NCBI RefSeq assembly: GCF_004022265.1
Contig: NZ_SAVB01000003.1
Location: 62,001-126,000, forward strand
From: Paenirhodobacter ferrireducens
GTDB taxonomy: Bacteria; Pseudomonadota; Alphaproteobacteria; Rhodobacterales; Rhodobacteraceae
Reading direction: 5' to 3'
Length of the DNA stretch: 64,000 nucleotides
Shown: piece after piece, positions 6,730-21,061 of the stretch
Numbering within the stretch: the first letter of the stretch is position 1
How the letters are laid out: the number at the start of each line of letters is the position of its first letter
Made by a program: the position numbers and the translations under genes
The notes under the pieces: generated by a model
Told to the model about the DNA's origin: nothing
What the model saw: only the letters and a program-made list of their open reading frames with translations
The model's database searches: none

Positions 6730-6895
6730 GGACCCTCCCCGCAGTGGTGCCGGAAAACCTAGCGTCGCTGCGATGCAGCGCAAGTTAATTCTGCGAAATT
6801 GAGCAAATTAACTGACCAATTTTGAAATGTTTGCAAAGTTGGCCGCGGTGCGGCGCGCTATTGACGTGCGGCAGGGGGGCGGGCAAGCAGGGGGC
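6730..6895. promoter_or_regulatory. Divergent pyc/trkH control region with AT-rich palindromes
   Basis: The 6780-6840 segment is markedly AT-rich for this genome. It holds a perfect 8-bp inverted repeat (AGTTAATT at 6783-6790 and AATTAACT at 6806-6813, 15 bases apart) and the palindromic octamer TTTGCAAA at 6830-6837, with a related TTTTGAAA just before it. TTTGCAAA resembles the half-site of ScfR-type regulators (RamB/PccR) that control acyl-CoA and anaplerotic genes. That assignment to pyc is inference. Confidence 0.5.
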
Positions 6896-8344
6896 ATGAT
6901 CGAGTTGCGCCCGGTGGGCTACATCATCGGCCTGCTGGCCACGGCCCTCGGGGCGGCGATGCTGATCCCGGCCGCGCTCGATTTCCTGCGCGGCGATGCC
7001 AATGCCGGCGCCTTCCTCGAGGCGGCGATCGTCACCATGACCGCGGGCGGGTTGGTGGCGCTGGCGGCCCATGACGGGCGCGGCACGATGCTGAGCCTGC
7101 GCCAGAGCTTCGTCGTCACCACCGGCGCCTGGGCGGTACTGCCCGCCTTCGGCGCGCTGCCCTTCCTCACCGGGGCGCCGGGGCTCGACTTCACCGACGC
7201 CTATTTCGAGGCGATGTCGGGGCTGACCACCACCGGCACGACGGCGATCCCCGAGCTCGACGAGCTGCCTGCCGGCACCAACCTGTGGCGGGCGATCCTG
7301 CAATGGTTGGGCGGGCTCGGCATCATCATCGTGGCGATGATCTTCCTGCCGGTGATGAAGGTCGGCGGCATGCAGTTCTTCCGCTCGGAAGGCTTCGACA
7401 CGCTGGGCAAGATCCTGCCGCGGGCGATGGACATCTCGGCGGCGCTGATCCGGGTCTATGTCGGGCTGACGGTGGCCTGCGCGGTGACCTATGCCGTGCT
7501 TGGCATGACCGCCTTCGATGCGGTGGTGCATGCGCTGACCACGCTCTCGACCGGGGGCTTCTCGAATTACGACGCGAGCTTCGGTGTCTATCGCGGCGCG
7601 CCGGAATATGCGGCCTCGCTGTTCATGCTGCTGGCCGCGATGCCCTTCATCCGCTTCGTGCAGCTTGCCCAGGGCAACCCCGCACCGCTGTGGCGCGACC
7701 CGCAGGTGCGCGCCTTCCTGCGCTGGCACGGCTATGCGATCGCGGTGATCGTGCTCTATCGCCTGATCCGGCACGAAAGCGCGTTCTGGCCGACGCTGCG
7801 CGAGGTGACCTTCAACGTCGTCTCGACCTTCACCGGCACCGGCTATGCCTCCGAGGACATCACCACCTGGGGGCATCTGGCCTTCGTGGTGCTGATCATC
7901 ACCGGGCTGATCGGCGGCTGCACCTCGTCGACCGGCTGCTCGGTCAAGGTGTTCCGCTATCTGATCCTATTCCAGGCGATCAAGGTGGCGATCCGGCGGC
8001 TCTACAGCCCGCACCGGGTGATGGGGATGCGCTATGACGGCCGCGCGGTCGAGCGCGAGGTGCTCGATTCCGTCGTCGCCTTCTTCACCCTCTTCGTGCT
8101 GACCTTCGGCGGGCTGATCGTGGCGCTGTCGCTGACCGGGCTCGCCCCGCGCACGGCGCTGACCGCGGCCTGGACGGCGATCGCCAATGTCGGGCCGGCC
8201 TGGGGGCCCGAGGTGTCGTCCAACGGCGCCGTCGACCGCTTCCCCGACAGCGCGAAATGGCTGATGGCGCTCGGGATGATGCTTGGCCGGCTCGAGCTGA
8301 TGTCGGCCTTCGTGCTGCTCTTGCCGAAGTTCTGGCGCGGCTGA
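6896..8344 (+). CDS. trkH: TrkH family potassium uptake protein
   Basis: 482-residue integral membrane channel subunit of the Trk system, which imports potassium and normally partners the NAD-binding TrkA. The four-fold pore repeat is visible as filter-like segments: MSGLTTTGTT near residue 110, TTLSTGGFSNYD near 220, VSTFTGTGYASED near 315 and IANVGPAWGPE near 430, joined by hydrophobic helices. Length matches TrkH. The start at 6896 (MIELRPVGYIIG) begins the first membrane helix, with AGCAGGGGG upstream; an upstream in-frame ATG at 6827 would add a charged stretch not seen in the family. It is divergent from pyc and convergent with the next gene. No trkA is in the window. Confidence 0.93.
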   Translation: MIELRPVGYIIGLLATALGAAMLIPAALDFLRGDANAGAFLEAAIVTMTAGGLVALAAHDGRGTMLSLRQSFVVTTGAWAVLPAFGALPFLTGAPGLDFTDAYFEAMSGLTTTGTTAIPELDELPAGTNLWRAILQWLGGLGIIIVAMIFLPVMKVGGMQFFRSEGFDTLGKILPRAMDISAALIRVYVGLTVACAVTYAVLGMTAFDAVVHALTTLSTGGFSNYDASFGVYRGAPEYAASLFMLLAAMPFIRFVQLAQGNPAPLWRDPQVRAFLRWHGYAIAVIVLYRLIRHESAFWPTLREVTFNVVSTFTGTGYASEDITTWGHLAFVVLIITGLIGGCTSSTGCSVKVFRYLILFQAIKVAIRRLYSPHRVMGMRYDGRAVEREVLDSVVAFFTLFVLTFGGLIVALSLTGLAPRTALTAAWTAIANVGPAWGPEVSSNGAVDRFPDSAKWLMALGMMLGRLELMSAFVLLLPKFWRG

Positions 8345-8373
8345 GCGCCGCGCCCGCGGTCAGGTTCGGGCGG

Positions 8374-10158
8374 TCATTTCCAGCAGGCGATCTGCACGGT
8401 GAATTTCTGCGCCTCGACGGCCAGATCCTCGGCCGCGAGCGTGCCCGTGGCCTCCGACGCCGTCGGCATGAAGCCATGCTCGGCCAGCACCTGAACGAGC
8501 GGCATCGCCTGCACCGCCTCGGTCAGATCGGCGGGCATCAGCTTGGTGCCATCGGCCGCGCGCGGCAGGACGATGCCGACAAGCGCGCCCGAGCCATCGA
8601 GCACTGGCCCGCCCGCATCGCCCGCCAGGGTGTGCACCGCGAGCCGCGCCCGGTTCGCCTCGCCGGCAAGGCCGGTCAGATCGGAGAGCGTGCCGAAGCT
8701 CAGCACCGGCGCGGTCAGCGCCTCGGGATAGGAAAAGCCCGCCACCGCCACTTGCGCGCCGGCGGCGGTCGCCGCGGTCTCGAAGGTGACGATGCCGGCA
8801 GGGGCCATCGCCTTCTTCGGCCGCAGCACCGCAATGCCAAGCGCCGGATCGGTGAAGGCGAGATCCGCCTCCTCGTCCTCGATGGTGATCTTGGTGCAGG
8901 TGTCGAGCCCGGCGCCCGCCGTCAGCACCGCGCCCTTCTCGTCGATGAAGGCGCCCGAGCGGGCAAATTCCGGGTGCCGCCGCTCGAGCCCCGCCATCAG
9001 ATCGCCGCGCGTCACCGTCATCGGGGTGCCGAGCGAGGGATCGAGCGCGGTGCTGCCGATCGGCCGGAACGAGGCCTTCATCGCCGCCAGCACGCGCTGC
9101 ATCTTCGCCTCCTGCCCGGGCGGCCAGGCCAGGGTGAAGCCCTTGATCAGCCCGCCCGCCAGATGCGCCTCGGTCCAGGAGCGCAGGCTGTCGTTCTGCC
9201 CGGCGATGGTGAAGCCGCTGCGGTTGCGGCTGCGCTCGCCCTCGGCGGGCACCAGCGCCAGCGCCTGCATCCGGTCGTAAAGCCCGTAAAGCGCGTTCTG
9301 GTCGCCGGTCTGGGACAGCAGCAGCGCCGTGACGCCCGAGCCGTCCTTGGCGCGATAGACGACGAAGGGCGGGTCGTAGCGGTCGAATTCGATCAGGCCG
9401 AGCGGCAGGTCGATGGCAATGCCGGCGTCGGTCTCCTCGACGGTCTCGAGACCAAGGGCGGCGCGGTCGGCCGCGACGGCGGCGAGAAGCTGCGTCTGCT
9501 GCGTCGAGGCGAGCACGCCGGTCGGCGCAAAGCCCTGCGCCGTCTGCCATGCGGCGATCGCCGCGCGCGTGCCGCGGCCGAAGGCGCCGTCGATGGTGGC
9601 GTTGTAGAACCCCTGCCATTCGAGCGCGGCCTGAATCTCCATCCGTGCCTCGCGGTCAAGCGCCGCCTCGAGCCGCTGCGACTCGGCCAGCGTCTCGACC
9701 GGCGGCGTCGGTTCAGGGGCGGCGGGCAGAGCCTCGGCCGGGGGCGGTTCGGCGCCGGTGGTTTCGGGGGCGGGGGCCTCCGGCGCCGGCGTCCCGGCCG
9801 TCCCGGGCAGCGGGGCGGTGCCGTTGGGCCAGAACTGGCCGCGGAAGCGGCCGCCGTCCGAGACATAGCTGTCGCCCGGGATCAGCCCCTCGCGGCGCAG
9901 CGTGCGCAGCCGCGCCGTCGCCTCTGCGGTGTCGGCGAAGGGGCCGATAGCGATGGCATACCAGCCCGTCGACATCGCGAAACCGGCGATATCGGGGAAC
10001 ATGCCGGCCCAGTCCCGCGCGCGCTCCTCGGCCTGCGGGAGCGAGGGCTGCGCCTCGATCTGCAGCCAGACCGGCTCGGCCGCGCCGGGCCCCGTCCAGA
10101 TCAGCCCCGCCAGACCCGCCGCCGTCGCGAGGTGCATCGCCCTGCGCATTCCCGTCAT
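8374..10158 (-). CDS. Exported SPOR-like/peptidoglycan-binding protein with degenerate trypsin-like domain
   Basis: 594-residue secreted protein. It has a signal peptide (to about residue 27, ending GPGAAEP), then a SPOR-like repeat region (YAIAIGPFADTAEATARLRT), a Pro/Ala-rich linker, a PG_binding_1 domain (IQAALEWQGFYNATIDGAFG, about residues 175-235), a middle region and a C-terminal chymotrypsin-fold domain. The last is recognisable from GDAGGPVLDGSGALVGIVLP, but the usual GDSGGP serine is alanine. The position expected for TAAH reads LTAGAGLD, without His, and the Asp strand reads DPALGIAVL. I therefore infer a non-catalytic wall-binding or scaffold role. The start at ATG 10158 gives the cleanest signal peptide; GTG 10170 and ATG 10149 are alternatives. 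It is divergent from glyQ. Confidence 0.8.
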   Translation of the reverse strand: MTGMRRAMHLATAAGLAGLIWTGPGAAEPVWLQIEAQPSLPQAEERARDWAGMFPDIAGFAMSTGWYAIAIGPFADTAEATARLRTLRREGLIPGDSYVSDGGRFRGQFWPNGTAPLPGTAGTPAPEAPAPETTGAEPPPAEALPAAPEPTPPVETLAESQRLEAALDREARMEIQAALEWQGFYNATIDGAFGRGTRAAIAAWQTAQGFAPTGVLASTQQTQLLAAVAADRAALGLETVEETDAGIAIDLPLGLIEFDRYDPPFVVYRAKDGSGVTALLLSQTGDQNALYGLYDRMQALALVPAEGERSRNRSGFTIAGQNDSLRSWTEAHLAGGLIKGFTLAWPPGQEAKMQRVLAAMKASFRPIGSTALDPSLGTPMTVTRGDLMAGLERRHPEFARSGAFIDEKGAVLTAGAGLDTCTKITIEDEEADLAFTDPALGIAVLRPKKAMAPAGIVTFETAATAAGAQVAVAGFSYPEALTAPVLSFGTLSDLTGLAGEANRARLAVHTLAGDAGGPVLDGSGALVGIVLPRAADGTKLMPADLTEAVQAMPLVQVLAEHGFMPTASEATGTLAAEDLAVEAQKFTVQIACWK

Positions 10159-10319
10159 CGTGAAACCCACTTCCTGTTCTCAAAACGGGGTGAGGTTAGC
10201 AGGCTGACCGCCCGCGTCACCCCGGAAATCGCGGGAAATCGGGTCCGGGGGCAGGGCGGGGCGTTGACCCTTGCCCGGCGCTTGCCTAGAGAGAAGGCGC
10301 TTTGAACCAGAGGGAAGCC

Positions 10320-11258
10320 ATGTCGAACCCTGTCGCTCCGCGGTCGTTCCAGGAAATCATCCTGCGGCTCATGAATTACTGGGCCTCGAAAGGCTGCGCG
10401 GTGCTGCAGCCCTATGACATGGAGGTGGGCGCGGGCACCTTCCACCCGGCGACGACGCTGCGCTCGCTCGGCTCGAACCCCTGGGCCGCGGCCTATGTCC
10501 AGCCCTCGCGCCGTCCGACCGACGGCCGCTATGGCGAGAACCCGAACCGGCTGCAGCACTATTATCAGTATCAGGTGCTGATCAAGCCGAGCCCCTCGAA
10601 CCTGCAGGAGCTCTATCTCGGCTCGCTCGCCGCGATCGGCATCGACCTTGACCTGCACGACATCCGCTTCGTCGAGGACGACTGGGAGAGCCCGACGCTG
10701 GGCGCTTGGGGGCTTGGCTGGGAAGTCTGGTGCGACGGCATGGAAGTCAGCCAGTTCACCTATTTCCAGCAGGTCGGCGGGCATGACTGCAAGCCGGTCT
10801 CGGGCGAGCTGACCTATGGGCTCGAACGGCTGGCGATGTATGTGCTCGGCATCGACCACGTCATGCAGATGCCATTCAACGCGCCCGACGCGCCGATCCC
10901 GCTGACCTATGGCGACGTGTTCCGGCAGACCGAGGAAGAGTATTCGCGCCACAACTTCGATGCGGCCAACACCGAGATGCTCTTGCGCCATTTCGAGGAT
11001 GCCGAGGCGGAATGCGAGCGGCTGCTGTCCTTCCCGGCCGAAGACCCGAACTCGGGCAAGCGCATCATCATGGTGCACCCGGCCTATGACCAGTGCATCA
11101 AGGCGAGCCACCTGTTCAACCTGCTCGATGCGCGCGGGGTGATCTCGGTGACCGAGCGGCAGGCCTATATCGGCCGGGTCCGGGCGCTCGCCAAGAAATG
11201 CGCCGATGCCTTCGTGCAGACCACCGCCGGCGGCTGGACGCCCGACGCGGCCGCGTGA
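10320..11258 (+). CDS. glyQ: Glycyl-tRNA synthetase alpha subunit
   Basis: 312-residue catalytic subunit of the alpha2beta2 bacterial GlyRS. Conserved motifs include [20 protein letters not shown] at the N terminus, [19 protein letters not shown], the aminoacylation segment [20 protein letters not shown], and [20 protein letters not shown]. The start at 10320 (MSNPVAPRS) has AGAGGGAAG upstream. The beta subunit glyS follows 1.2 kb downstream on the same strand, but a convergent marC-family gene lies between, so glyQ probably has its own promoter in the 160-base gap with the divergent pseudoprotease gene. Confidence 0.98.
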
Positions 11259-14671: not shown

Positions 14672-15679
14672 TTAGGTGGCCGCGAGGGCGAGGGCCGTCG
14701 CCTCGTCGGTGACGAGGACGCTCGCCAGCCCGCCGCGCAGCATGGCGCGGATCGCCTCGACCTTTTCCGGACCGCCGCCGATGCAGATCCGCTCGGGCAC
14801 CTGCAGCAGATCGCCAAGCGCCATGGTGATGTGGCGGCCGTCGAACTCGCTGTGCACGATCCTGCCGTCCGCATCGAAGAAATAGCCCGCGGCGAAGCCC
14901 ACCGCGCCGAGGTCGCGATAGGCGGCAAGCTCGGCCTCGGTCATGAAGCCGCCCTGCACCAGCAGCGTCTCGCCGGTCAGCTGGGTGACGCCGAACACCG
15001 CCTTGGTGCAGCCGCGCAGCAGCGCGAAATGGTCGCGGATCGCCGGCTCGTGCATCAGGATCTCCTTCACATGCGGCGAGGAGACGACGCCCGGCGCATG
15101 CAGGTTGATCGCCCGCGCGTTCAGCCGCGCCGCGATGTTCGAGGTGCACAGCACCGGCGAGAAGTCGAAGGTGGCGGCGGAGGATCCGGTGATCTGCGCC
15201 ACGGTGACGGTCGGGCAGGCGATGGCACTGAGGTGTTGCGAGAGCGCGAGCACGGTGCGCCCCCAGGCGACGCCGATCGTGTCCTCGGGCCGCAGCCGGT
15301 TTTCCAGCACCCGCGCCGCGAGATGGCCGATCTGGCCATGCAGCGATCCGCCCTCGCCCTCGCCCTCGCGCTGGCGCGGCAGGATGTAGCATTCCGCAAG
15401 GCCTGTCGCGGCGCAGATCTTCAGTGACAGCGCCATTCCGGCGATTCGCGTCGGGTCGATCGAGATGTTCACCACCCCCTCGTCGCGCGCCTTCTGCAGC
15501 AGGTTGAACACCGAGGCGCGGGAGATCCCCAGCTCCTCGGCGATCCGGTCCTGCTTTTGCCCCTGCTCGTAATAGAGCCAGGCCGCCCAGAGCACCTCGT
15601 CCATGCCGAATTGCGCCGGAACGGCGCGCCGGCCGGTCCGGGGCTCGGTCGTCTCGATCAAATCCGCTTTTCTTGCCAT
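14672..15679 (-). CDS. SorC/DeoR-type sugar-binding transcriptional regulator
   Basis: 335-residue regulator. It has an N-terminal helix-turn-helix (QKQDRIAEELGISRASVFNL, about residues 42-61) and a C-terminal sugar-phosphate-isomerase-like effector domain with IGVAWGRTVLALSQHL, VAQITGSSAATF and ICIGGGPEKVEAIRAML. SorC-family proteins usually repress adjacent catabolic operons and are released by a phosphorylated sugar intermediate; EryD of erythritol catabolism is one relative (family knowledge). The start at ATG 15679 has AAGGGAAAA upstream. It is divergent from the ten-gene catabolic operon and shares a 172-base control region containing a palindrome at 15785-15813, so it very likely regulates that operon and itself. 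Confidence 0.9.
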   Translation of the reverse strand: MARKADLIETTEPRTGRRAVPAQFGMDEVLWAAWLYYEQGQKQDRIAEELGISRASVFNLLQKARDEGVVNISIDPTRIAGMALSLKICAATGLAECYILPRQREGEGEGGSLHGQIGHLAARVLENRLRPEDTIGVAWGRTVLALSQHLSAIACPTVTVAQITGSSAATFDFSPVLCTSNIAARLNARAINLHAPGVVSSPHVKEILMHEPAIRDHFALLRGCTKAVFGVTQLTGETLLVQGGFMTEAELAAYRDLGAVGFAAGYFFDADGRIVHSEFDGRHITMALGDLLQVPERICIGGGPEKVEAIRAMLRGGLASVLVTDEATALALAAT

Positions 15680-15784
15680 GCGTTTTCCCTTCGTCGGTCG
15701 GGGCCGAAATGCGCCCCGACCTGTTGGGCAGTCTCGCATGAAAGCGGGTGTTTTGGCAAATGCCGACATTACGTGAAAATTGTT

Positions 15785-15813
15785 GTTGACGAATGACAGA
15801 GTCATCTGGCAAC
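15785..15813. promoter_or_regulatory. Candidate operator for the SorC-type regulator
   Basis: Two 13-base half-sites, GTTGACGAATGAC and GTCATCTGGCAAC, form an inverted repeat (10 of 13 positions match) around an AGA centre, with a perfect ATGAC/GTCAT core. It lies 39 bases before the first start codon of the operon and overlaps a TTGACG that could be a -35 element. The assignment as operator is inference. Confidence 0.55.
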
Positions 15814-15851
15814 TTTCAAATCAAGGGAGAGCACTTGCTTGGGAGGAGCAG

Positions 15852-17192
15852 ATGAGCTTGCCGCTGACGGCGCGCGAGAGCGCGACCGGGGGCTGGAATG
15901 CCCTCATCGAAGACGTCACCACCGGCCGCTGGCAGGACCCGGACACCGGGGCTGCGGTCACCGTGCCGTTCCGCTGCATCGAGATCGGCGACGGGTTTGC
16001 CGCTGGGGCGCGGGATCTGGTCGAGCGGGTGATGCGGGCCGGGAGCTATGCCGTGGTCTGCGACGCCGACACCGCCGAGGCGATGGGGGCCGAGGTTGCC
16101 CGGGCGATGGGGGCGACGGCACGGCTGGTCGTGCTCGATCACCCGCATGCCGACGCGGCGCAGGTGCGGGCGCTGAGCGACGAGACCCGCGATGTCGAGG
16201 CGCTGATCGCCGTCGGTTCGGGCACGATCAACGATCTTTGCAAATACGCGACCTTCCGCGACGGGCGGGCCTACAGCGTCTTCGGCACCGCGCCCTCGAT
16301 GAACGGATACACCTCGTCGACGGCCTCGATCACCCTCGAGTCCGGGCTGAAGACGACGCAGAAGGCGCATGCCGCGCGCGGCGTCTTCATCGACATCGGG
16401 GTTTCGGCCGCGGCGCCGCAATACCTGATCGGGGCGGGGCTCGGTGACAGCCTGTGCCGCCCCACCGCGCAGGTCGACTGGTATTTCTCGCATGTGATGC
16501 TGGGCACGCGCTATGCCACCGCCCCCTATCTGCTGCAGGAAGAGGACGAGGCCGCGGTTCTGGCGCGCAGCGCCGGGCTTGGTGCGCGCGAGCATGACGC
16601 CATCGGCTACCTGCAGCGGCTGCTGACGCTCGGCGGGCTGGGCATCGCGGTGGTGGGGATGAGCCACCCGGGCTCGATGGGCGAGCATCAGATCTCGCAC
16701 TGGATCGACAGCTTTGCCGGCGCGCGGCATCCGGGCACGGTGCATGGCCAGCAGGTCGGCGTTGCCTCGGTCACCATGGCGCGGCTGCAGGCGCGGATCC
16801 TCGCGATGGAAGAGGCGCCGCGGCTGCGGCCCTGGCAGCCCGACGAGGCGGCGATCCGGGCGCGCTATCCGGCCGCCGCGGTTGAGGATTGCCTGACCGC
16901 GAGCCGGGCGAAGGCGATGACGGCCGAGGATGCCGAAGCCTTCAACGCCAAGCTTGCCGCGATCTGGCCCGAACTGCGCGCGACGCTCGGCGCGATGATG
17001 CTGCCGCCGGACGAGATGGCGGCGCATCTGCGCGCGGCCGGCGGCGGTGCGACGCCGGCCGAGATCGGCCTCGACCGCGACCTCTATATCGAGGCGCTGC
17101 GCCACTGCCGCGAGATGCGCGACCGCTATTCGCTGCTCGATCTGGCCGAGGACATCGGCATTCTGGACGATTTCATCGAGGAGGAAGTCTGA
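15852..17192 (+). CDS. AraM/EgsA-like sn-glycerol-1-phosphate dehydrogenase
   Basis: 446-residue member of the iron/zinc alcohol dehydrogenase superfamily, closest in pattern to bacterial AraM and archaeal G1P dehydrogenase, which interconvert glycerol-1-phosphate and dihydroxyacetone phosphate with NAD(P). Visible features are a dinucleotide-binding segment (IAVGSGTINDLCKYATFRDG), the substrate loop PSMNGYTSSTASI, and metal ligands Asp in GLGDSLCRPTAQVDW, His in SMGEHQISH and His in VHGQQVG. The start at 15852 has GGGAGGAGCAG upstream. It is the first gene of the catabolic operon and overlaps the HAD gene by one base (TGATG). In this context it may oxidise a sugar-alcohol phosphate other than G1P (inference). 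Confidence 0.85.
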   Translation: MSLPLTARESATGGWNALIEDVTTGRWQDPDTGAAVTVPFRCIEIGDGFAAGARDLVERVMRAGSYAVVCDADTAEAMGAEVARAMGATARLVVLDHPHADAAQVRALSDETRDVEALIAVGSGTINDLCKYATFRDGRAYSVFGTAPSMNGYTSSTASITLESGLKTTQKAHAARGVFIDIGVSAAAPQYLIGAGLGDSLCRPTAQVDWYFSHVMLGTRYATAPYLLQEEDEAAVLARSAGLGAREHDAIGYLQRLLTLGGLGIAVVGMSHPGSMGEHQISHWIDSFAGARHPGTVHGQQVGVASVTMARLQARILAMEEAPRLRPWQPDEAAIRARYPAAAVEDCLTASRAKAMTAEDAEAFNAKLAAIWPELRATLGAMMLPPDEMAAHLRAAGGGATPAEIGLDRDLYIEALRHCREMRDRYSLLDLAEDIGILDDFIEEEV

Positions 17193-18007
17193 TGCGACCG
17201 CTTGCCGAGCTCGACCCGGCCGCGCTGCGCGGTTGCGTCGCGGTGCTGACCGATATCGACGACACGCTGACCACCGACGGGCAGTTGCCCGCCGCCGCCT
17301 ATGGGGCGCTCGAGCGGCTGGCGCAGGCCGGGCTTGCGGTGGTGCCGATCACCGGCCGCCCGGCGGGCTGGTGCGACATGATCGCCCGGTTCTGGCCGGT
17401 CGCCGGGGTGGTGGGCGAGAACGGCGCCTTCTACTTCAGCTATGACCGCACGGCGCGGGTGATGCGGCAGCGCTTCTTCGCGCCAGAGGCCGAGCGTCAG
17501 GCGAACCGCGCCCGGCTGAGCGCGCTGCGCGAGCGGATCCTGCGCGAGGTGCCGGGGGCGGGGATCGCCTCGGATCAGCTCTACCGCGAGGCAGATCTCG
17601 CCATCGACTTCTGCGAGGACGTGCCGGCATTGCCCGAGGCCGAGGTGCAGCGCATCCTCGACATCTTCGCCGAGGCGGGGGCGGTGGCGAAACTGTCGTC
17701 GATCCATGTGAACGGCTGGTTCGGCGACTACGACAAGCTGTCGATGACCCGGATCTTCGCACGCGACATCCTCGGGCTCGACATCGACGCCGAGCGGGCG
17801 CGGGTGATCTTTGCCGGCGACAGCCCGAACGACGGGCCGATGTTCGGCTTCTTCCCGAACAGCTGCGGCGTGGCGAATGTGCGCGACTTCGCGCCGGGCA
17901 GCTTCACGCCGCCGGCCTTCGTCGCCGCCTCGGAAGGGGGCGCGGGGTTCGTCGAGATCGCCGAGCGGATCCTTGGCGCGCGGGTGCCGGAGGCGGCCGA
18001 TGCCTGA
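17192..18007 (+). CDS. HAD-IIB superfamily sugar-phosphatase-like hydrolase
   Basis: 271-residue haloacid-dehalogenase hydrolase. Motif I is LTDIDDTLTTDG (nucleophile Asp and acid Asp), motif II ITGRP, motif III a Lys around KLSMTR, and motif IV IFAGDSPNDGPMFGFF. The C2-type cap between motifs II and III places it with sucrose/mannosyl-phosphoglycerate phosphatase-like enzymes. The substrate is unknown but is presumably a phosphorylated intermediate of the surrounding pathway. The start ATG at 17192 shares its A with the TGA of the previous gene, and the stop overlaps the GlpD-like gene by 8 bases, so expression is tightly coupled. A phosphatase inside a kinase-containing catabolic operon is unusual; see findings. 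Confidence 0.85.
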   Translation: MRPLAELDPAALRGCVAVLTDIDDTLTTDGQLPAAAYGALERLAQAGLAVVPITGRPAGWCDMIARFWPVAGVVGENGAFYFSYDRTARVMRQRFFAPEAERQANRARLSALRERILREVPGAGIASDQLYREADLAIDFCEDVPALPEAEVQRILDIFAEAGAVAKLSSIHVNGWFGDYDKLSMTRIFARDILGLDIDAERARVIFAGDSPNDGPMFGFFPNSCGVANVRDFAPGSFTPPAFVAASEGGAGFVEIAERILGARVPEAADA

Positions 18008-19529
18008 CATGGTCGATCTGTTCATCATCGGCGGCGGCATCAACGGCTGCGGCATCGCGCGCGACGCGGTCGGGCGGGGCTATTCGGTGGTCCTGTGCGA
18101 GCAGGGCGATCTCGGTGGCGCGACCTCGTCCTCCTCGACCAAGCTGCTGCATGGCGGGCTGCGCTATCTCGAGCATCACGAGTTCCGCCTCGTGCGCGAG
18201 GCGCTGATCGAACGCGAGGTGCTGTGGAACATCGCGCCGCATATCGTGCGCCCGCTGCGCTTCGTGCTGCCGCACAGCAAGGGGATGCGGCCGGCCTGGC
18301 TGCTGCGGCTTGGCCTGTTCATCTATGACCACCTCGGCGGGCGCAAGCTGCTGCCCGGCACCGCGCGCGTCGACCTGAAGTCGGGGCCGATCGGGCAGGG
18401 GCTGCGCGACGGGCTGCGGCTTGGCTTCGAGTATTCGGATTGCTGGGTCGAGGACAACCGGCTGGTGATCCTGAACGCCATCGACGCGGTCGAGCGTGGC
18501 GCGACGGTGCGGGTGCGCACCCGCTGCACGAAGGCCGAGCCGCGCCCGGGCGGCGGCTGGCGCGTCACCCTGCGCGGCGAGAGCGGTCGCGAGGAGGTCA
18601 TCGAGGCGCGGATGCTGATCAACGCCGGCGGTCCCTGGGCGAATGATGTCGCGCGCACCATCGCGCGGCGCCCGCCGAAGGGGCGGGTGCGGCAGGTGCA
18701 GGGCTCGCATATCATCGTGCCGAAGCTCTACGATCACGACCGCTGCTTCATCTTCCAGAACGGTGACGGCCGGATCGTCTTCACCATCCCCTACGAGGGG
18801 CGCTTCACCCTGATCGGCACCACCGACCGCGACTATCCGGGCGACCCGGCCAAGGTCGCGGCCTCGCCCGAGGAGATCGCCTATCTGTGCACGCTGGCGA
18901 GCAGCTATTTCAAGCGCCCGGTCACGCCCGCCGATGTGGTCTGGACCTATTCCGGGGTGCGTCCGCTTTATGACGACGGCAGCTCCGAGGCGCAGAAGGC
19001 CACCCGCGATTACGTGCTCGAACTCGACACCCGGGCCGAGGCGCCGGTGCTCTCGGTCTTCGGCGGCAAGATCACGACCTATCGCCGGCTTGCCGAATCG
19101 GCGCTGGAGCGCATTGCTTCGTGCCTCGGAGATCCTGAGGGAGGCCCGCGGCTGCCGGCGGGATGGACCGGGCAGAAGGCGCTGCCGGGCGGGGACTTCG
19201 CGCCGCTGGCGTTCGACGCCGAGCGCGACGCGCTGCGCGCGGACTATGGTTTCCTGGGCCAGGCCGAGGCGACGCGGCTGCTGCGCTATTACGGATCGCG
19301 GGCGCGACGGGTTCTGGGAGGGGCCCGCAGCCGTGCCGATCTGGGCGAGGCCTTCGGCGGCGGTCTGACCGCGCGCGAGGTCGACTACATGCGTGCGCAC
19401 GAATGGGTGCGCAGCGCCGAGGACATCCTGTTCCGCCGCTCGAAGCTGGGCCTCGTGCTGAGCCCGGACGAGGTCGCGGCGCTGGAACGCTACATGGAAG
19501 GACAGATGCCGAAACGTCAGAGCGCCTGA
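18000..19529 (+). CDS. glpD: GlpD-like FAD-dependent glycerol-3-phosphate dehydrogenase
   Basis: 509-residue flavoprotein. It has an N-terminal FAD Rossmann motif (IIGGGINGCGIARDAVGRG, residues 8-26), the DAO-fold segment ATSSSSTKLLHGGLRYLEHH, a mid-protein GTTDRDYPG, TYSGVRPLYDD near residue 317 and a C-terminal GlpD domain ending in EWVRSAEDILFRRSKLGL. GlpD oxidises glycerol-3-phosphate to DHAP at the membrane, feeding the quinone pool. Close relatives such as EryB oxidise erythritol phosphate instead, so the substrate here may be a longer polyol phosphate. The start at 18000 lies 7 bases after GGAGG and overlaps the HAD gene; ATG 18009 is an alternative. No glpK or glpF lies nearby. Confidence 0.9.
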   Translation: MPDMVDLFIIGGGINGCGIARDAVGRGYSVVLCEQGDLGGATSSSSTKLLHGGLRYLEHHEFRLVREALIEREVLWNIAPHIVRPLRFVLPHSKGMRPAWLLRLGLFIYDHLGGRKLLPGTARVDLKSGPIGQGLRDGLRLGFEYSDCWVEDNRLVILNAIDAVERGATVRVRTRCTKAEPRPGGGWRVTLRGESGREEVIEARMLINAGGPWANDVARTIARRPPKGRVRQVQGSHIIVPKLYDHDRCFIFQNGDGRIVFTIPYEGRFTLIGTTDRDYPGDPAKVAASPEEIAYLCTLASSYFKRPVTPADVVWTYSGVRPLYDDGSSEAQKATRDYVLELDTRAEAPVLSVFGGKITTYRRLAESALERIASCLGDPEGGPRLPAGWTGQKALPGGDFAPLAFDAERDALRADYGFLGQAEATRLLRYYGSRARRVLGGARSRADLGEAFGGGLTAREVDYMRAHEWVRSAEDILFRRSKLGLVLSPDEVAALERYMEGQMPKRQSA

Positions 19530-19615
19530 GCGCAATCGCGCCGGGAGTGGAGGCCCGGGGCGCTCTGATCCAACCGGCCGCACGGGAGGCGGCCGTATAA
19601 CAGGGAGGAGACGCG

Positions 19616-21061
19616 ATGTTTCTGGGGATCGACCTTGGAACGTCGGGGGTGAAGTGCATTCTGATGGATGACGCCCAGAGCGTGATCGGCGAGGCCTCCT
19701 CGCGGCCGCTCGAGGTGAGCCGGCACCGGCCGGGCTGGTCGGAGCAGGACCCCGAACTGTGGTGGGAGGCGGTGAGCGAGACGCTCGACAGCCTTGCGGC
19801 CGGGCATCCGGCGGCGATGGCGGCGGTCGAGGGGATCGGACTTTCGGGCCAGATGTATGGCGCGACCGTGCTCGATGCACGCGATCAGCCGCTGCGCCCG
19901 GCGATCTTGTGGAACGACACCCGCAGCGGCGCCGAATGCGACGAGCTGATGGCGGGGGTGCCCGATCTGGTGGCCCGCGTCGGGCGCCGGCCGACGCCCG
20001 GGGTGACGGCCAGCAAGATCCTGTGGCTGCGTCGGCACGAGCCCGAGACCTATCGCCAGATCCGCAAGGTCTTGCTGCCAAAGGACTATGTGCGGCTGCG
20101 GCTGTCGGGCGAGAAATCGACCGACCTCGCCGACGCGAGCGGCACGATGTGGGTCGATCTGGCGGCGCGGAACTGGTCGGACCGGATGCTCGAGGCCTCG
20201 GGGCTGAACCGCACGCACATGCCGCAGCTGGTCGAGGGCACCGAGGTCTCGGGCCGGCTGCGGCGCGAGCTTGCCGCCCGCTGGGGCATGCACCGCCGCC
20301 CGGTGATCGCCGGCGGTGGCGGCGACAACGCCTGCGGCGCCTGCGGCACCGGGGTGATCGAGGATGGTGACGGCACGGTCTCGCTCGGCACCTCGGGGGT
20401 GCTCTTCGTGGCGAACGACAGCCCGCGCCCGGCCGGCGATTTCGCCATCGAGACGCTGTGCCATGCCGTCCCCGGCCGCTGGCACCAGATGTCGGTGCTG
20501 CTGTCGGCGACCTCCTGCCTGACCTGGCTCGGCGCGCGGCTCAAGCGCGAGCCCGGCGAGCTGGCCCGGGCATTGGGCGAGGCGCCGCTGCCGGCGACGG
20601 GGCTGATCTTCGTGCCCTTCCTCGACGGCTGCTGGTCGCCGCGCTCGGACGCCTCGGTGCGCGGCGGCTTCTACGGCCTGGCGCATCAGCACGACGATCT
20701 GGCGATGGCGCAGGCGGTGATGCAGGGCGTGGCCTTCGCGCTGCGCGAATGCGCCGACGCCTTCCGCTCGGGCGGCTCCGAGCTGCGCCGGCTGCTGGCG
20801 ATCGGCGGCGGCTCGCGCTCGCGCCCCTGGCTCGCGATGATCGCGACCTCGCTCGGAGTCGAGCTTGACGTGCCGCGCACCGGCGCGCTTGGCGCGGCCT
20901 TCGGTGCGGCGCGGCTCGGCATGATCGCGGCGAGCGGGGCCGCGCCGGGCACTGTGCTCCGCCGCCCGGCGCTGCGCGAGGCGATCGGCCCCGAGCCAGC
21001 CCATGCCGACGGTTACGCACAGGCCTACGACCGCTGGAGGACGGTCGCGGCGCTGTGTTGA
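19616..21061 (+). CDS. xylB: FGGY carbohydrate kinase, xylulokinase-like
   Basis: 481-residue FGGY-family kinase with an actin-like fold. The N-terminal phosphate loop is FLGIDLGTSGVKCILMD, followed by GLSGQMYGATVLD and the AILWNDTRSGAEC substrate loop, all xylulokinase-like. The second domain has GGGGDNACGACGTGV, SLGTSGVLF and the adenosine site AIGGGSRSRPWLAM. Length matches XylB. Specificity within FGGY is not safely predictable, so D-xylulose is the best guess rather than a firm call. The start at 19616 follows GGGAGGAGACGCG. It lies 86 bases after the GlpD-like gene and before the ABC importer genes, on the same strand throughout. Confidence 0.85.
   Translation: MFLGIDLGTSGVKCILMDDAQSVIGEASSRPLEVSRHRPGWSEQDPELWWEAVSETLDSLAAGHPAAMAAVEGIGLSGQMYGATVLDARDQPLRPAILWNDTRSGAECDELMAGVPDLVARVGRRPTPGVTASKILWLRRHEPETYRQIRKVLLPKDYVRLRLSGEKSTDLADASGTMWVDLAARNWSDRMLEASGLNRTHMPQLVEGTEVSGRLRRELAARWGMHRRPVIAGGGGDNACGACGTGVIEDGDGTVSLGTSGVLFVANDSPRPAGDFAIETLCHAVPGRWHQMSVLLSATSCLTWLGARLKREPGELARALGEAPLPATGLIFVPFLDGCWSPRSDASVRGGFYGLAHQHDDLAMAQAVMQGVAFALRECADAFRSGGSELRRLLAIGGGSRSRPWLAMIATSLGVELDVPRTGALGAAFGAARLGMIAASGAAPGTVLRRPALREAIGPEPAHADGYAQAYDRWRTVAALC

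Follow-up and report, generated by a model that had tools for sequence, protein, structure and literature searches.

An HtrA-type trypsin domain without its catalytic triad, conserved in a predicted peptidoglycan-binding protein of Rhodobacteraceae

Introduction

What is a protease domain kept for when none of the residues with which it would cut are left? The question is raised by a gene in the window, that is the whole stretch of 64,000 nucleotides of Paenirhodobacter ferrireducens analysed here, in which a preliminary description had noticed an exported trypsin-fold protein lacking its catalytic residues. The gene encodes 594 aa on the minus strand (10158-8374), with its ATG at 10158 and its stop codon at 8376-8374, and the open frame of 594 residues that had been described was thereby borne out. 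The string aggaag is found about 12 nt 5' of ATG 10158, with ATG 10149 an alternative start, and a scan for promoters and terminators at the gene found nothing.

The start of the gene is separated by 143 bases from glyQ (10302-11258, plus strand), which is divergent and a conserved neighbour outside the protein, and the 3' end of the gene is adjoined by the convergent trkH (6827-8344), both names being given by eye from the translations. On the plus strand a frame of 682 codons (8257-10305) runs antisense to the gene, this is probably a mere outcome of GC-rich codon use, and as a candidate at the same coordinates it was set aside as an antisense open frame of a kind common in GC-rich DNA. Elsewhere in the window (14672-21061) the list of open reading frames contains, by eye, a SorC-type regulator, a dehydrogenase, a HAD hydrolase and frames resembling GlpD and FGGY kinases, which may form a cluster for polyol catabolism. 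The genome carries no second copy of the pseudoprotease gene.

Domain architecture and predicted folds

Pfam matches and structural models predict that the protein consists, in order, of a signal peptide, a SPOR domain, a Pro-rich linker, a PG_binding_1 domain, a domain of about 130 residues resembling PsbP, Mog1 and LpqN, and a trypsin domain of the HtrA/DegS type. The signal peptide (residues 1-27, 10078-10158, minus strand as for all features of the protein) was recognised by eye from a basic start, a hydrophobic stretch and a GAAE/AWAE boundary. The three Pfam matches all exceed their curated cut-offs, SPOR (PF05036, residues 28-91, 9886-10077) scoring 25.6 bits against 21, PG_binding_1 (PF01471, residues 169-216, 9511-9654) 44.2 against 23, and Trypsin_2 (PF13365, residues 401-529) 44.3 against 27.6.

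A full-length AlphaFold2 model built from 9 sequences is poor (mean pLDDT 51.8), its usable part being residues 157-367 or so. The SPOR part, a low-confidence region of the model, matches the SPOR structure of RlpA (6i09) at Z 6.0, and residues 161-229 match the N-terminal peptidoglycan-binding domain of SleB (6tci) at Z 10.6. Between the PG_binding_1 and trypsin domains lies a fourth domain that had gone unnoticed (residues ~232-369, 9052-9465), which has no Pfam match up to E 1 and was found by VIA-align of the model, with a likeness to PsbP (9gnw_P, Z 9.6, rmsd 4.6, 124 aligned), Mog1 (1eq6, Z 8.2) and LpqN (6e5d, Z 6.3), although block pLDDT here is 55-86 and Z scores of such size can also mean a common arrangement.

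The full-length model is also poor over the trypsin part, so this domain (residues 395-540, 8539-8976) was folded on its own, from 10 sequences, with a pLDDT of 80 and a pTM of 0.80. The resulting model matches HtrA1 (3nzi) at Z 17.4, with 163 aligned and rmsd 3.7, DegS (2qf0) at Z 17.2 and MucD at Z 17.1. Together with the PF13365 match this agrees with the earlier claim that the trypsin fold is retained, and the domain is predicted to have the chymotrypsin-type double beta-barrel of the Trypsin_2/HtrA (S1C) proteases.

Loss of the catalytic triad

The triad positions were set by a gapless match of three motifs against triad-bearing homologues. In the protein of the window the catalytic His is replaced by A416 (8911-8913), in LTAGAGLDTC against LTNHHVVAGC of the triad-complete relative L136, the catalytic Asp by G441 (8836-8838), in FTDPALGIAVL against ATDADSDLALL, and the catalytic Ser by A515 (8614-8616), in GDAGGP against GNSGGP. 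All three residues are thus gone, as first described, the strings GDAGGP and LTAGAGLD having been given exactly.

The same was found in the relatives, an extent of change that the first description had not covered. For this comparison 211 relatives without the triad and 29 triad-bearing homologues were chosen by coverage of the trypsin domain alone, with the hmmsearch pieces of each open reading frame joined. Left out of the 211 were contig-cut or broken rows (such as L010, L027, L120 and L124-L126), the domain-less rows L130, L135 and L137 and their longer copies L149, L147 and L148, matches to the peptidoglycan-binding part only, identical copies, and L157. Among the 29 homologues 27 read HDS, one (L110) is cut at the His, and one (L108) is misaligned at the Asp but has the His and GSSGGP. 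No triad residue is kept in 204/211 distinct relatives with an alignable trypsin domain, one is kept in 7 (Ser alone in 4, Asp alone in 3), and two or more in none. In a second set, of 231 rows (210 distinct) covering at least 80/125 columns of the PsbP-like part and at least 100/145 of the trypsin part, the sole row reading HDS is L139.

The His position holds Glu in 114 of the 211 relatives, Asp in 35, Ala in 34, Gln in 13 and others in the rest, but never His; at the Asp position Gly is found in 193/204; and the Ser position holds Ala in 144, Val in 36, Thr in 13, Ile in 4, Ser in 4 and others besides. Orthologues with a normal GDSGGP had been named as evidence that would speak against the loss; among the 211 none has a normal active site, the 4 relatives with Ser lacking both the His and the Asp. 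One GDSGGP orthologue (L150:5979-7355, the same gene as L133), without catalytic His or Asp, has also lost its SPOR and peptidoglycan-binding parts.

It could be supposed that the domain still cuts by means of other residues, as Thr (13/211) or Ser (4/211) is found at the Ser position in some relatives and an acid stands at the His position in 149/211. This is very improbable, there being no conserved pair of nucleophile and base, with Ala or Val at the Ser position in 180/211, Gly at most Asp positions and His never at its own. In residues 395-594 there is no column in which His is present in at least 60% of the 211 relatives, and S401, the only strongly kept Ser (190/211), is part of an SG/TG motif common to the active homologues, so no substitute active site is visible. 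A sequencing or strand artefact is ruled out, the same triad state being found in about 170 genera. That the trypsin domain is non-catalytic and conserved is well supported. The Trypsin_2 match makes such proteins easy to annotate as serine proteases, although the members read cannot cut by that triad.

Distribution and synteny with glyQ

All 18 genomes of the genus have a match to the pseudoprotease. In the family Rhodobacteraceae, sampled at about one genome per genus, there is a match at 1e-10 in 272/295 genomes, of which 251 are strong (best E <=1.7e-44, counted by eye) and 21 are weaker or partial, often to the peptidoglycan-binding part only; about 173 of the 251 were read, the genomes listed for reading favouring better-scoring matches. 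Judged from the sequences read, the inactive form is retained by most of the family. The order search gave a match in 188/195 genomes and the class search in 50/289, 4 of them Rhodobacteraceae, with the matches outside the family mainly to the C-terminal trypsin domain or the peptidoglycan-binding part. Readable trypsin matches outside Rhodobacteraceae keep a GNSGGP-type Ser.

The gene is adjoined by glyQ, usually divergent, in 227/244 loci, a total that includes repeat copies of some genomes. Of these neighbours 17/227 were scored as downstream and opposite, probably from stop-to-stop frames overrunning glyQ. Of 30 genomes without a strong match glyQ was found in 27, and at none of these 27 loci did the flanks fetched, at most 1.5 kb long, contain a trace of the gene (L300, one of the 27, is truncated by the start of its contig), thus the gene is truly absent in a minority of genomes.

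Constraint on the inactive domain

The dN/dS of the trypsin domain is 0.048-0.331 in 10/10 close pairs, similar to that of the other domains, and the dead domain is thus under purifying selection. A pseudogene or recent decay is ruled out by frames that are open and a dN/dS below 0.34 in all 10 pairs. Relatives without the triad, a fold model of HtrA type and purifying selection together agree with the term conserved pseudoprotease that the preliminary description had used.

The GDxGGP loop is retained apart from its Ser, with G513 in 203/211 relatives, D514 in 201/211 and G516 in 211/211. A further feature, absent from the first description, is a pair of cysteines. C421 (8896-8898) is Cys in 211/211 pseudoprotease relatives and all aligned active ones, and C592 (8383-8385), in a C-terminal CWK tail, is Cys in 209/209; because the pair is invariant in dead and active proteins alike, a C421-C592 disulfide is presumed.

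Other residues, namely R400, P447, R505 and D514, are diagnostic of the dead clade, being fixed there and not so in the active homologues, which have Gly at 400 (25/26), Gln at 505 (28/29) and Asn at 514 (26/29). Such clade-specific residues point to a new constraint rather than mere decay. Position 416, that of the lost His, is acidic in 134/172 relatives with R400 against 15/39 without the Arg (Fisher p 3.5e-6, kinship ignored). A salt bridge between R400 and an acid at 416 in the emptied active site would fit this association, which is only suggestive as kinship is ignored, and position 416 of the protein in the window is Ala and not an acid.

Origin and later deletions

A FastTree phylogeny of the trypsin domain, built after masking the columns of the three triad residues, splits 208 dead from 29 triad-bearing sequences without exception, at SH 0.77, which is moderate support for a separation of the dead clade from the active homologues. 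Two triad-complete proteins have some of the upstream domains in common with the family. In one (L136/L145) the family profile recognises SPOR-like, peptidoglycan-binding and PsbP-like stretches before an active-type protease (Pfam finds PG_binding_1 and Trypsin_2 in it, but not SPOR), and the other (L139/L146) has the peptidoglycan-binding and PsbP-like parts before such a protease; glyQ is not in the fetched stretch of either. A tree of the peptidoglycan-binding and PsbP-like parts, rooted on L139 and weakly supported, places both proteins and L157 outside 215 family members. A single loss of the triad after the domains had joined is the simplest account, and the loss is ancient, having probably occurred in an ancestor of Rhodobacteraceae, and has been maintained since.

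L157 (7097-8536, genome G627, from another alphaproteobacterial family) combines PG_binding_1 and PsbP-like parts with a very degenerate trypsin-like end (ILTSEGALKGC, GGGGAALF, VSLVCASDK), and may be a dead version outside Rhodobacteraceae that is either older or of independent origin.

The trypsin domain has since been deleted and the rest kept in two lineages, one a single genus (L147:6016-7383 and L148:6246-7886, which have two SPOR-like copies, the peptidoglycan-binding part and the PsbP-like part) and the other L149, all still beside glyQ. From these two deletions and from the absence of the gene beside glyQ in some genomes it follows that neither gene nor domain is essential everywhere. 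As the SPOR, peptidoglycan-binding and PsbP-like parts survive the deletion of the trypsin domain, it is these that resemble the core, to which the dead domain looks to have been added as a module.

The deletions, and a relative in genome G173 with internal stops, are also what would be expected if the trypsin part were vestigial, an inert folded spacer under slow loss with the work done by the other three parts. This is a possibility, but a doubtful one, given the dN/dS of 0.05-0.33 and the clade-specific residues conserved across most of the family.

Proposed role

As most of Rhodobacteraceae retain this inactive form, the trypsin domain is probably reused for something other than cutting. 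The reading we prefer, and consider rather probable, is that the protein is an exported, non-catalytic scaffold or adaptor anchored on peptidoglycan, with the dead domain as its protein-binding module. The predicted signal peptide would allow export, and the SPOR and PG_binding_1 domains would, judging from what such domains are, fix the protein on the wall. The PsbP-like domain would be part of the constant core, and the HtrA-derived domain, having lost its triad in an ancestor of the family, would now be a module probably stapled by the disulfide. We infer that its ligand would be a protein or a peptide. Elsewhere the glycan bound by SPOR domains is denuded and often septal; the structural or sensory role at the cell wall that was first proposed is plausible from the SPOR and PG_binding_1 domains and the signal peptide, and a septal one may be inferred from the domains. 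No partner gene is linked to the pseudoprotease gene.

Two specific forms of this scaffold reading rest on analogy. In one the protein would regulate septal peptidoglycan hydrolases, the dead domain docking and activating amidases or lytic transglycosylases in the manner of the inactive LytM domain of DipM, a protein which in the alphaproteobacterium Caulobacter is a dead-enzyme regulator of wall enzymes (PMC10336132, accessible part). SPOR and PG_binding_1 point to the wall as well, but no hydrolase gene is linked and the fold differs from LytM, hence we hold this form to be rather unlikely. In the other the protein would serve an active periplasmic protease as regulator or sensor, one dead and one live HtrA-type protein forming a pair like MamO and MamE. 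Three Trypsin_2 loci are found in the genome, the pseudoprotease gene, a DegP-like L142 with intact triad motifs and a further locus, L144, and MamO is described as activating MamE-dependent proteolysis (PMC4794232, accessible part). Against this, there is no linkage and the non-Gly 193 and di-His motif of MamO are not seen, and such a role would be quite unlikely.

A bolder proposal, unlikely when taken as a whole, is that Rhodobacteraceae have a second kind of dead-enzyme regulator of the cell wall with a fold unrelated to that of DipM and EnvC. It would be an HtrA-derived pseudoprotease tethered through SPOR to denuded glycan and through PG_binding_1 to the wall, mostly with the charged pair of acid 416 and R400 filling its former active site, that would recruit a septal hydrolase or protease or gate it, and that had a single origin from a mobile, Cys-stapled protease module, the one joined to Sel1 or MORN repeats in other Alphaproteobacteria. 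If it is true that the protein controls septal wall enzymes, the division regulators of a major family of marine and phototrophic bacteria would gain a new class.

The family forms a natural series that runs from relatives with the triad, through a dead form found family-wide and stragglers that keep one residue, to lineages with the domain deleted. It allows the fate of a dead protease domain after the loss of catalysis to be tested directly in Rhodobacter capsulatus, where the gene is present (L004, L005).

Comparison with known systems

A description of a pseudoprotease family with SPOR, PG_binding_1 and PsbP-like domains was not found in a search of the open literature only. A SPOR-domain protein, Dshi_0924, makes up >1% of the vesicle protein of Dinoroseobacter shibae (PMC7901474, accessible part), and may or may not belong to this family.

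Several inactive enzymes of bacteria offer a comparison. DipM-type regulators have LysM anchors. In the accessible text of PMC10336132, DipM is a LytM protein, itself dead, by which autolysins are recruited and activated, and it and other inactive LytM regulators share with the present family a dead peptidase domain in an alphaproteobacterial cell-wall protein. The difference lies in the fold, that of DipM and EnvC being a LytM metallopeptidase, whereas no LytM/Peptidase_M23 domain is among the Pfam matches here up to E 1. The S1C domain of RsgI9 has a degenerate triad. Its S1C-NTF2 structure (PDB 7sjy), among the Foldseek matches, has in common with this protein an HtrA-type (S1C) domain in a signalling envelope protein, but RsgI9 is an anti-sigma factor of a Gram-positive. 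CspC and CspA of Clostridioides difficile are likewise serine proteases of a bacterium that are dead and act in signalling (PMC6636752, as far as its accessible part goes), but they are subtilisin-like.

A further comparison is with active alphaproteobacterial proteins in which Sel1 repeats (4/10 scanned) or MORN repeats (2/10) precede the same C-terminal module. The Trypsin_2 domain at the end of these proteins (L086, L089, L091, L094, L096 and L103) is intact, has both invariant Cys and is followed by a tail of CW type; they differ in that the triad is kept and repeats replace the SPOR, peptidoglycan-binding and PsbP-like parts. The Cys-bearing domain looks like a mobile module.

The nearest precedent for this trypsin-fold pseudoprotease is MamO of magnetotactic Alphaproteobacteria, a metal-binding HtrA-type protein, itself dead, by which an active partner is activated. 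The accessible part of PMC4794232 describes an HtrA/Trypsin_2-type domain, periplasmic, with a degenerate active site, restricted to a single clade and with a conserved non-catalytic role, and a degenerate triad in an HtrA-type domain is present here too. MamO has kept its His and Asp, with Thr for Ser, carries a residue other than Gly at position 193, and has both a di-His motif that binds metal and a TauE domain, whereas here all three triad residues are gone and the trypsin domain is combined with SPOR, PG_binding_1 and PsbP-like ones. Chymotrypsin position 193 (G513) is Gly in 203/211 relatives, unlike in MamO, and a surface di-His metal site like that of MamO was not seen in columns 395-594 of the 211. 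As Gly is kept at 193 and there is no conserved His, the protein is not classed as MamO-type, with MamO its closest known parallel.
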